NCBI GenBank assembly: GCA_003864495.1
Contig: ML133443.1
Coordinates: forward strand, 2,417,486-2,481,485
Source of the DNA: Nemopilema nomurai
Lineage: Eukaryota; Cnidaria; Scyphozoa; Rhizostomeae; Rhizostomatidae
Reading direction: 5' to 3'
Length of the DNA: 64,000 nucleotides
How positions within the stretch are numbered: position 1 is the stretch's first letter; every line of letters begins with the position of its first letter. The position numbers and the translations under genes are program-made. Under the pieces are notes generated by a model, which was not told where the DNA came from, made no database searches, and saw nothing but the letters and a program-made list of their open reading frames with translations. Positions 30,901 to 39,900 of this stretch are shown piece by piece.

Positions 30901-33900
30901 ATTCTGACCATCAGTACTGCTGTCACTTTCAAATTCATTTTGATAGTAAGACTGAAATTAGGGTCATTGAATCAGAGATTTGTTCTAAAGGTGTTTGGTG
31001 GCCTTGGGGTGTGCATCTGTTTCGATTATCCTGCAAGTCAATGCTGTGTTGTCCGTGATCATGTTTCTGAAACAATTTTGTGATGGCTTTAACACAGACT
31101 AGACAAAGGTGCTATTTAAAATTCACAATTCGCTATCACAGGTTTAAGGCTCCTTTACCGACAGATCAACTGTGTACTTGAGACTAGCATGAAATTACAA
31201 ACTGTTGGTTTGCAATACTGTGTTTACTGATATACTGTGCTTATAACAGGGCACGATGATATGTTGTGTTCATGGTATTACAAACGGCTGTACCGTGTTT
31301 ATAATATCATATGCAGATATATTCTATTCATAATATTATGATATTATAAACACAGTTGAACACTATTGAATGGGTTGTGTGTTATCATTCTTCATGCCTC
31401 CAGTTGCATTATTTTTTTCGTTTGTTGATAATTCCTATATTCTGCAGTCATGCTTTGAGCAAGTTATGTATAAAGTTATGCAAGTTAAAACGATCTTGTA
31501 TGACTCTTCAGTATTCTACACCAATGAATTCTTGCATGTTTCAAGAAATAATTTGGATTAATGTGCTGAATTTTAGTTTTTTGAAGATTGTTATGAAATA
31601 TCACACATTTCTCATGGTGTGCCTAAGAAAGATTTATCTTTTTTGAAACAATGTTAGCAATCTGAATTATTATTTGGTTTGTTTTTCAAGTGGTTGCTTT
31701 GAGGATATGACAATTTAAGTTGTGTTGTGATATCATTGATTGGAATCTTCATAAACCATTTACATAAATATTCAAAAAGACCAAGTTTCTGTGAGTAGGG
31801 GCTTTCTTTAGAATTTTTTTAGTATTAAGATTTCTTTGCGCCTGAGCTCAATTTCATGGTTAGTTACAAAGCATTGAAAACGGAATTTCACACGATATAC
31901 AGGTTGACCGATAATCTGGCCCCCGGCGCAAGTAGCCTTATCAACTGATCAGCTCCCTCCATTGTTATAACGCAAACTAGTTGAGGGCCTTCTCGCTCAG
32001 CCTAATGTGGGGCTTTTGTTTCACAGAAAACCTCTGATTCTTTCCCCACTCTTTCTTTTTCTTAAACTTCCATACAATGTGAAACAGTTAATTCAGCTGC
32101 TGTGTCATCGTGTCATATGGTAATTAGTTATTCCTCTCAGCATGCAAAAGAATCAACCCACACTCTCTGTTAGTAGGAACTTAGAAAATGGAAGCAATTT
32201 TTCCCAAGAATTCGTCGATTTGGTAGAGAGCTCCTTTATACAGAATCTAAATCGTAATCCGATGATATTCTTTGTATCAAAGTTGCTTTGAGCAAGAAGG
32301 CGGCATCACTGAGCGACCTTCCTTTCCTTTGACCATTTCAACGAGCTTAAGTCTGCGTAGGAATGCACGTGAGAGTTCTTACTCACGTGGAATTCGTATT
32401 CACGTGGGGCTCGTACTCAATTTTCTACCAGCCTTCGCCCCCATTGTCATTGTCCAGGGAATACAAATGAAATTGCTTTCTAGTGATGACATTAGCTCCA
32501 AAGACTAGCACACACAGATATCCTCATTGGTCCCCCATTTCTAAGCTTCTAGCTTTGTAACGACCAAAAGGGAAGTATACGACCTAACATTAGTAATCAA
32601 AGTGCGTCATTTTCAATTGATTTTCGTCAAGCAATATAAAATCGTTGTTTGGTACGCCTGGTGGAAGCTGGCCGCGAATTTGAACACTCCCTGCCGAGTA
32701 TTGAACATTTTTGTGCCAAGATCATAGTTTACATAGAGACAACCCCAAAAAGTATATCATTGCACCTGCATTATTCATTTTATCTGTGTATGCTACAGAA
32801 TCGTTCAATATTTCCTCGCAGTTTAACAGTTTTTGAAGTATTGCAATGCCATTTGTATTAATGCCGGTTTATGATTTCACGGAGAGTGATTTCTCTTGAA
32901 ATAGCCTTTTGAGCCCCGATTGATTAACGTGAGAACAATGAGTGTATTCAGCAAGCCCCAAGTACTTCATCAGTATTTCTTCCAGGCGTTTGCCTCTAGA
33001 TTATTCCTTAGAAATCTTTTCACTGGAAGTTGATATTGTTTCACTGGAAGTTGAATACTTGGAGTCGTGCGTCAAAAATCAATTTACAGTTGAAGCCGGG
33101 AAACGTTCTTGCCATTTCTCTTCAAGTGGGTATTGAGGCTCGGAGACCTTCCTGGCTATCGAAAACATCAAGTTAACGAATATTCCTATCTTGAAATCAG
33201 CGATTACCTTGCCAACTTTGCTTATTTCGTATACAGTCTCTCAAGCAAAACTGATACCTTTAACATCAACTATAAGATCTCTACATTATTTCCAAGAATT
33301 GATAACCTTTGAGTAAAATCAGAAGTCACATTCTTCATTTTCTTAACATTGTCCTTTGGAGATTTGACTCTCTGAATAGATTAGGACCAGGATTTTGTCA
33401 ACCTTCTCGAGGCTGTGATTCCTATATGATACCCTATAGTAGTCCATAATTGATACAAACGTCCCATTAGTGTCCCATCCCACTCACAACCAACCTTCTA
33501 AACAAGCTGTGAGTAGTTTCGTATGGACCCTTAAACCAGAAATCGGCTTTGTTTCCGCGTTGACCAAAGGCAGCATTTTTACGTGTAATCTATTATTGTA
33601 CACATTACAGGAGTACGAAAAATTGGTGTAATAGGGGTGTATGAAAACGAACGTTTCCACCCACATGTTCGATTTTTTTTGCACTATAAATGGGGGTATT
33701 TGGTGCCAGGGTTTCACAATCCAAGCGCAAGGAAGAGAGAGACCTACACAACATCCACAAAGACCTCTGGTAAACCTATCAAAGAAGATGGAGAGCTCTG
33801 CTTCCTGCCTAACAGTGAGTGTGTTTTGGGATATCCACCAACTCGATAGTCGAAAATCTCTTTCTCTTTTAGCAGATTCGTCGTTAGGGTCATTTAGGTT

Positions 33901-36900: not shown

Positions 36901-39900
36901 GATGTTACGTGACAAAGCTCTGTAGTAGGTTTTTATTAAGAAAAGGAGAAATAAGTGTCTTACCATCTAGAGGTATTTAAAGAAAAGTATTGTATATAGT
37001 ATATTTTTCAAAGAATTTGAATGCCAAATTGTTGGGACTATTTTCTTGCCACTAGTATTTTAGACTTGGATGTTGAAGTTCTGAAGTGTCTAGAGTAAGG
37101 GCTAAGATTAAATGATGTATGAAAATCCAGGTTTATTTCACCTGCTATCACCTTAAGGCAGTGGTCTCACAATCTGAAATCATGTCTTCCCTGGGTAAAT
37201 AGCAGTTGCCATTAAATAGCCTAGCTGCCTTTTGTGAAGAGCCCTTTTGATGCTTGATTGGAAAGAGTCTTAAATTGTTGATTGACAGCTTTCCTTGTTT
37301 GTTAGCTGCCACTATCGTTTAAGATCGGTGACAAAATTGTTTCTCGTTCGTCCAAAATATTTGCTTTTGAAGGTTTGTGGAGACAAAAATCGTTTAAAAC
37401 TACTTTTTTCACAAGGCCCTTCTTAAAGTTCCTATATCCTAAAAAATGAATACGGATTGCAAAATATGCTGCCTTGCCTTTTCTGTGATTTGTGAGTCTT
37501 TTTAGCTTGCAACCAATTTCACATTGTACTACCATCACATTCATTTCAATCTATTAAAAAGTTGAACAAGCAACCTATGCAACAAACAATTCAGAAAACA
37601 AGAAAGCAAAAAACAAACAAGCATTCAAATTCTCTACTTTCACGGAGTTCTATATATTTAGTCGCTTTCGCAGACGTTTGTTATTTCTGTCCATTAAATA
37701 AACCGGGTCTGGTCCTCCAAGGCCGACTAGATAAAACATTTCGAATCTGTAGAATTCAAACGTACTGCGTGACATCGCAGTACTCGCTGCTGCTAAACAA
37801 GACAACCACATGTAATCAACAAATGTGCATTGCCCAGTAAATGATTTCCCAATGCGTTTAGCAACCATGTGAATGTGGAGCTCGCCACTATCGTAGTCCT
37901 TTCCCGCTTCAAAACATCTGAAGTCGGCCGGTATGCATGAGTGGGCCCTTTAGCCGTCACGAAAATGCTCTATTATACAAAGAATTCGAAGTATTGTTTT
38001 GCGTTGCAATCTTCTGGCCTCTTTGGCGGCATATCCGCGATGCATTACGTAATGAGTTGCGAACTGCTGTATGTCTCACTACAGCTTTCAAATCCTGAAG
38101 CTATGTCGTCATATAATGAGGAGACTGGTGAAAGTTTTTGTACCATCGCTGTTAGTAATGCTGAACTGTTCCTTCTTCGATTAGTTTCTGAAGCATGCAA
38201 TGTTCAAGAAGCTCACTTGAAGTTCTATGGAAACTTGCATCAGAGGGATCACGTAACTGCGTCTATTAATAGACCATTACATGTTAAGAGGGCCAGTGCT
38301 TATATATATGGTGAAATTCACCTTGATTTCATTTACTTTGTGGTTTGCCGACAGGCAGCATCTAATTCTTTAAAGCAAGCGCTGGTTTTCAAAGCTGATG
38401 GATTCGCGATCAGGGCTTGTCAAATTGTTGGCTATTTTTCTGGTGAGTTTATTTGTTTATTTTCGCGTCTGATATTTTCACTTACCGACTAGAGCGCGAA
38501 TACTCCTGGTGAAACACCTTTATGTGTTGGAGAAGAACATGCAAAGTGTACTGACTCAAGGTAGAAAATCAACAATATAAATCGCACTTTTGTTAAAAAA
38601 TAACTCAAATCAGACTCCACTAATTTGCATATACCTCTGCATATATTTTTCAAAAGTTAGAATATTTTTCTGCTGCTAATACAAATTCCTTCATACTGGG
38701 TAAAATGTTCTTCTTGCTGTCAATAGCAAGGATTTTTAACAGTGCTAACAGTCAACTTTGACCTACAAGTGTTCACGGGATGCATTTTCTATTTCGAACT
38801 GTATTTTTCTGGGCATGTGATTATGGTTTTCAATTTCCCTTTTCTTCCAGTTTCTGCTGTGGTCAATTACAGTATGTAGAGGTGCTCCTGCTCTCCTGAA
38901 CAGTCAACCGATCAAAGATGACGTCATGTCCAAGTACTTGCTGGTTAGCAGAAACGTACTTTCTTACAAGTCGAGGCAATCGGTGGTTGAAGCCATTGAT
39001 ACTGTCATCGGTGGTGTTTGTCAATACAGATTCGTAGAAACTGAGAAGGATGCAAGACAAATACCTCAAACATTGCAGTCTGCCGAATGCGTGAAGCTTT
39101 CGCATGGCAGATGTGACCGGAGGTGCCGCCCTGTATTCTACATGGTGATGGTCTTGAAAAAACGGAGAGCCACCGTGGCCTCCTTCAAAATACACACGTG
39201 GGTCGCAAAAAGGGTCCCTGTCGTCATTGGTTACCGTTTGATATGATCGCTGACTGGGTTTCGAGTGATGTTCCTGCAGAGGCAAAGATAGATCCGAGAT
39301 TTGCAGGCTGCATGGTGCCTATAAGCTGGTTAGGATGGTGAAAATGCATAAATTATTTCAAAGAAAATAACTATTTAAGTCTTGGGCGGTGGTTAGCGTT
39401 CGTATTCAGGACAGAAAGCGCCGCTCTCTTTCATAATGATGCAAAGCATGTAAAGGTTCTTTTAATGAACTGAAAACAATAGCGATGTAAAATATCGCGA
39501 AAATTATGTGATATATTAAATCAATTATGCATATGTACATATTCTACAATTTTTATCGTAGATTTTTAAAAATAGTGTTACACTCAACCCCTCTTGTCAG
39601 ATATGTATTTATTTAAGATGAATTAAAAATGGGTTTTAAAGAGAAAAAGATTTTTTCTGCACGTGTGTTTCTATCATTTATCCTTTGTCCGTACCTGCGT
39701 CCACTGTAAAAAAGTAGCAAAAATAGCGGGTCCTGTTATAGCAGTCTCAAGGTTATTGGCTGCTATCAATTAAAGAACACCGAAAAATGCTATTTAAGCA
39801 TTCTGTTGGGCTTTTACTTGAAATACAGTAGTTTAAAGGGAAATACAGTTACTGCTATGGTCCATTTTTTGGAAAGGGCCCAAACGGAAAAAGCCGTTCA

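Follow-up and report, generated by a model that had tools for sequence, protein, structure and literature searches.

What do the three small genes that lie in tandem inside a single intron of POLR3A in the scyphozoan Nemopilema nomurai encode? We addressed this question in a 64,000-nt stretch of contig ML133443.1 (hereafter the window; coordinates are positions in it unless another contig is named). An initial annotation, made from the letters alone, had read the three genes as IL-17 ligands. With a probability of roughly 0.6, we consider the products of genes 1–3 to be small signalling proteins that are secreted and belong to an IL-17-like family, known to date from this cnidarian and one other assembly. 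Profile comparisons supported the affinity to IL-17, the predicted fold supported it weakly, and noggin scored lower; the label of IL-17 ligand nevertheless proved too strong. Because the C-terminal CxC cysteines are absent and the Pfam scores fall below the cut-off, we do not file genes 1–3 as IL-17, and their sequences fit a knot-less, IL-17-like family instead.

Splicing of the three window genes was read off the sequence and not from transcripts, and gave the following models:

33685–33690, forward strand: gene 1 TATA box, 103 bp upstream of the ATG.
33788–33814, forward strand: gene 1 exon 1 (ATG at 33788; 27 bp, 9 codons), the hydrophobic start of the predicted signal peptide; donor GTGAGT at 33815.
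34088–34483, forward strand: gene 1 exon 2, 396 bp including the stop codon, the rest of the predicted signal peptide and the mature IL-17-like protein (140 amino acids in total).
35756–35761, forward strand: gene 2 TATA box, 113 bp upstream of the ATG.
35869–35898, forward strand: gene 2 exon 1 (ATG at 35869; 30 bp, 10 codons); donor GTGAGT at 35899.
36030–36428, forward strand: gene 2 exon 2, 399 bp including the stop codon (142 amino acids in total), with the top Pfam IL17 score among the three (20.4–20.6 bits).
38301–38306, forward strand: gene 3 TATA box (TATATA), 97 bp upstream of the ATG.
38398–38442, forward strand: gene 3 exon 1 (ATG at 38398; 45 bp, 15 codons); donor GTGAGT at 38443.
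38851–39246, forward strand: gene 3 exon 2, 396 bp including the stop codon (146 amino acids in total), with the orthologue-like relative P0001.

The intron is in phase 0 in all three genes, and the predicted N-termini are hydrophobic (best 10-residue means of 2.93, 2.58 and 3.0 for genes 1–3). The proposed layout of a 9–15-codon signal exon, a GTGAGT donor, a phase-0 intron and a long exon of 396–399 bp was borne out in each gene model. A TATA box had been placed 90–107 bp before each ATG; the box itself is present in all three cases, and the distances span a slightly wider range than that. TATAWA occurs 71 times on the forward strand of the window, which corresponds to a chance of ~0.027 for any given 25-bp slot, and a box sits at the expected slot in 3/3 window genes and in 2/2 close paralogues.

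To place the proteins, we compared seven close family sequences (genes 1–3, L007, L009, P0001 and P0002) and a nine-sequence set that also includes C120 and C86. Pfam IL17 (PF06083; curated cut-off 24 bits) was the top family for all seven close proteins, at 13.6–22.3 bits and a best E of 0.00017, with every score below 24; P0001, P0002, L007 and L009 reached 17.4–22.3 bits. These matches are not independent tests, since the family proteins are related to one another. In a profile–profile comparison against a set of IL-17F plus four own-genome IL-17 matches, the family scored 24.7 with seven sequences and 31.3 (E 1.9e-5) with nine. None of 200 column shuffles reached either score (maxima 18.4 and 20.8, respectively), and the genome's own two noggins gave 11.7 and 19.6 in the same comparison. 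Against IL-17F alone the family scored 18.4, for which the yardstick is the 43.6 obtained by the genome's own IL-17s against IL-17F. On these profiles, the family appears to be a genuine though remote relation of IL-17.

As in IL-17, the mature core runs in the order Cys-strand, P..L..A.C, C.P[IV], VL, W and a final [VI].[VI]G strand, and it retains the majority of the cysteines seen in invertebrate IL-17. The aligned cysteines and the Trp that had been described as common to genes 1–3 were recovered in the alignment, the first two knot cysteines and the P..[IL]..A.C motif occur in 9/9 sequences, and a C/S.P[IV]...VL-type motif occurs in 7/7 close members. Three MAFFT modes placed the four core cysteines, which reach as far as the third strand, in register with their counterparts in the own-genome IL-17s. 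The extra Cys pair of invertebrate IL-17 also aligns with the own IL-17s in the seven close members, and is invariant in the nine-sequence alignment. By contrast, the two knot cysteines of the C-terminal CxC (V[GA]CTC in IL-17), which are present in the genome's own four IL-17 matches, are absent from all nine family sequences; the first CxC position is taken by Tyr or Phe, and the second is also replaced. The V[GA]CTC motif, the IL-17 motifs and cysteines and the third disulfide of invertebrate IL-17 are as given in the available part of PMC4517768.

Two further cysteines vary within the family. Genes 1 and 2, L007 and L009 each carry an N-terminal Cys together with one that follows the third (VL) strand, whereas mature gene 3 and P0001 have neither; P0002 starts too late for its N-terminal Cys to be judged, and C120 does not fit this paired presence and absence. 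We take these two positions to be those of the IL-17F interchain disulfide.

Predicted structures gave weak support to the IL-17 link. The AlphaFold model of gene 2 contains a helix and four strands at a predicted local distance difference test (pLDDT) score of 61.7, and 48 of the best 50 of its 170 Foldseek matches, read by eye, were IL-17 chains (top E 0.022). Among the matches listed, the structural alignments to IL-17A and IL-17F showed about 13–23% identity. The quality of the gene 1 model (pLDDT 48.1) was too low for it to be used; IL-17 or IL-25 made up 20 of its 35 Foldseek rows, each at E of at least 2.2.

Several results weigh against an IL-17 affinity and have to be set beside this evidence. 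Full-length genes 1–3 scored 14.3, 20.4 and 13.2 bits against Pfam IL17, under the cut-off of 24, and C120 had no Pfam match. When compared with the four own-genome IL-17s only, the family matched weakly (15.9 in the profile comparison, 16.9 with a longer alignment), and by HMMER it scored 0.7–3.8 bits, a level reached by 24 to 124 of 1000 shuffles. C86, the sole gene over the Pfam cut-off, appears to be tied less firmly to the family and its membership is doubtful: used as a query, it found itself, C120 (0.255) and a C105 fragment (0.493), and 0/5 close members. Lastly, Foldseek and VIA favored IL-17 on models of low pLDDT (48.1 and 61.7), with noggin within 1 Z and tied by structure.

That structural tie is what speaks for placing the genes in the noggin, PTTH and Trunk branch of cystine-knot proteins, where they would encode a growth-factor antagonist or a receptor tyrosine kinase ligand and not an IL-17-like protein. 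We regard this placement as quite improbable. Pfam listed no noggin family (PF05806) for any scanned member (window proteins up to E 5, HMMER filters on), and the noggin search of the own genome led only to two clear noggins at C70, which scored below IL-17. The foremost alternative, itself unlikely, is that genes 1–3 belong to a family of their own, made up of small cysteine-rich secreted proteins with a defence, matrix or peptide-hormone-like role, whose likeness to IL-17 reflects convergence on a short pattern of cysteines and strands. The sub-threshold scores, the loss of CxC, the weak match to the own IL-17s and the lack of a Pfam match for C120 are all what such a family would show. The PDB sequence search is in line with it too, since gene 1 returned unrelated weak matches only (E of at least 1.1) and the family profile returned none. 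Convergence of this kind does not readily account for a profile score beyond all shuffles, for a predicted four-strand order with fold matches to IL-17, or for a possible paralogue (C86) that scored 24.5 bits against Pfam IL17, just above 24, though it also lacks the CxC pair.

An IL-17-like family thus remained our preferred assignment, and we traced its members through the own genome (213 Mb, 226 contigs). The gene 1 core yielded five candidates for scoring, all of which matched: genes 1–3, C53:726253 and C77:479656, the last ~2 Mb from the window cluster. Both outlying copies have the same build as the window genes, with a TATA box at -101 and -113, an exon 1 of 15 and 10 codons and a phase-0 intron (C53 and C77, respectively), so that 5/5 close members of this genome combine a TATA box with a short signal exon and a phase-0 intron. 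With gene 3 and the C53 copy as queries, a sixth member came to light at C120:460157 (best E 2.2e-4); a seventh, at C86:905311 (E 1.69), is doubtful. As a query, C120 finds the C53 copy (2.2e-4), gene 3 (0.039) and C86 (0.213); it appears to follow the same plan, with its TATA box at -85 and a putative exon 1 of 15 codons, although the acceptor chosen has several competitors. C86 yielded no exon 1 and may therefore be built differently. Among viral contigs, gene 3 had 14 pattern matches, none of them confirmed as relatives.

Relatives were also present in the other assembly. P0001 is 56% identical to gene 3 over 86% of its length and P0002 is 63% identical to gene 2 over 107 residues; both are predicted frames without known transcripts. 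The existence of such relatives of genes 3 and 2 argues that the gene models are not due to chance. For P0001 as for P0002, the protein database gives a longest contig of 3,692,127 bp, which we take to be one and the same. In an unrooted tree, gene 3 grouped with P0001 (support 100), and gene 2, together with its copy, grouped with P0002 (99). This topology suggests that the split between the gene types came before that between the species.

Upon comparison of gene 2 with its C77 copy, we noted that near-identity is confined to one part of the gene:

36210–36428, forward strand: putative gene 2 conversion core, from the first core Cys to the stop codon; near-identical DNA in C77:479656, N-terminal half diverged.

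Silent sites differ by 76% over the first 60 codons of exon 2 and by 9% over the last 72 codons, where we counted four silent changes and one replacement. The near-identical stretch opens with the first core Cys, while the alignment itself runs to ~6 bp after the stop codon. The simplest reading is a recent gene conversion limited to the core, which we prefer because protein constraint alone would leave the silent sites unexplained. Such core-limited conversion would offer a route to a common scaffold while the remainder of the protein diverges.

The boundary of this tract also bears on whether the gene models end too early, such that a third exon supplies CxC and the genes are ordinary IL-17s. 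We consider this very unlikely: the conversion tract stops 6 bp beyond the stop codon, 9/9 sequences end without CxC, and the C-termini from the two assemblies resemble each other in both length and character (GYRLI and GYRML; GFHRMF and GFRRRF).

If genes 1–3 are IL-17-like, the most likely mode of action for the family, judged from sequence, is as secreted dimeric signals. The Cys that precedes P[IV] would be bonded to the first core Cys, matching the extra disulfide known from invertebrate IL-17, and the two stranded knot cysteines would pair with each other. For genes 1 and 2 alone, two chains may be linked into a dimer through the N-terminal Cys and the one that follows the VL strand, as in IL-17F. 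Once secreted, the dimer would exert its effect on other cells via a transmembrane SEFIR receptor. Local duplication may have left the three genes in the POLR3A intron, where their own TATA promoters would be used, presumably independently of POLR3A transcription. A more far-reaching version holds that a medusozoan cytokine lineage dropped the IL-17 knot and rewired its disulfides, that conversion homogenized the core while the N-terminal half serves as a specificity module, and that the POLR3A intron ties expression to Pol III output or insulates it from that output; this combination is speculative and, as a whole, improbable.

A search for an IL-17 receptor-like partner, as suggested with the initial annotation, recovered transmembrane SEFIR genes in the own genome. 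The SEFIR profile exceeded its cut-off at three places, namely C79 and C97, which are near-copies, and C53, whose match contains one TAG and may include an intron. Ahead of the SEFIR exon of C79, and likewise of C53, lies a hydrophobic stretch, identified by eye, that would span the membrane, as in the layout of IL-17 receptors. These genes are candidate receptors. The near-identical pair, C79:152709 (L015) and C97:19748 (L016), represents either a recent duplicate or two retained haplotypes. Four IL-17 matches exceed the Pfam cut-off in the same genome; two of them are convergent and ~3 kb apart at C161:165128-168271 (L001, L004, L014), and the two others are on C23 and C19. The two noggin genes, at C70:310145-316310 (L018, L019), lie ~5 kb apart and face each other on opposite strands.

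Like invertebrate IL-17 (PF06083), the family proteins are small and probably secreted, carry P..[IL]..A.C, C/S.P[IV]...VL and a final V.[VI]G-type strand, have the Cys pair of the third disulfide, and occur in tandem copies; tandem IL-17 arrays in invertebrates are described in the available part of PMC8353272. They differ in that the C-terminal CxC is missing from 9/9 sequences, the window genes score under the Pfam cut-off, and 3/5 close genes lie in POLR3A. Vertebrate IL-17A and IL-17F provide the top fold matches, yet the family lacks their C-terminal knot cysteines, and two core cysteines of the family correspond to Ser in vertebrate IL-17 (PMC4517768, available part). Noggin differs by its lower profile score and by having separate genes in this genome. 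As far as their available parts go, PMC8353272 reports no IL-17 in Hydra and names Cnidaria as the most ancient phylum with IL-17, and PMC4517768 reports none in Hydra or Nematostella. In our literature search, whose scope excluded preprints and most subscription journals, none of the titles listed dealt with scyphozoan IL-17 or with IL-17 genes nested in another gene; two papers do no more than mention an IL-17 pathway. A medusozoan would hold both IL-17 and a knot-less sister family, and an IL-17-like ligand that naturally lacks the C-terminal knot would offer a test of the knot's need for fold, dimer formation and receptor binding.

Lastly, we examined the position of genes 1–3 within POLR3A:

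29919–30036, forward strand: POLR3A exon 5' of the host intron, ending in LRAVMATR and the first base of a Gly codon.
30037–40414, forward strand: POLR3A host intron, 10,378 bp, phase 1, GT donor and AG acceptor, containing genes 1–3.
40415–40488, forward strand: POLR3A exon 3' of the host intron, part of the joined-exon match to human RPC1.

In the comparison with solved structures, the joined POLR3A exons (ending at 30036 and from 40415 on) matched human RPC1 residues 1205–1365 without a break at the intron (E 2.2e-79). All three genes lie on the forward strand between these exons, which confirms from the sequence that the nesting within one POLR3A intron, as claimed initially, is real. The host intron compares with ~107, 490, 1160 and 385 bp for the next four POLR3A introns. 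Nesting is not family-wide, as the two close paralogues are located elsewhere. Small independent genes inside long introns are common as such; this case is unlike the usual one in that three tandem paralogues share the strand of the host, whose span also holds an antisense intronless gene. That gene, at 17876–19090 on the reverse strand, encodes a rhodopsin-like G-protein-coupled receptor (GPCR) with six relatives listed, 43–68% identical. Since two close members lie elsewhere and a GPCR gene lies within the same host span, we treat the nesting as a curiosity rather than a mechanism, pending expression measurement. The GPCR gene gave no support for synteny: its best relative lies on a 2,746,725-bp contig, not on the 3,692,127-bp one given for P0001 and P0002, and may come from a different species.

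No Rfam family matched at its gathering score in 29000–41500, and no repeats of at least 25 bp were reported in 30000–41000 by a method that misses copies under ~65% alike. Simple NF-kB, AP-1 and IRF patterns had no match in the 400 bp upstream of five genes; a loose STAT-type pattern, scored without a control, was present in the same interval in 3/5. Downstream of the identified POLR3A exons, a 186-bp tandem unit is repeated in 59 copies with 98% matches (44911–55811). At the other end of the window, a cysteine-rich frame at 2–616 on the reverse strand appears to resemble meckelin (TMEM67).

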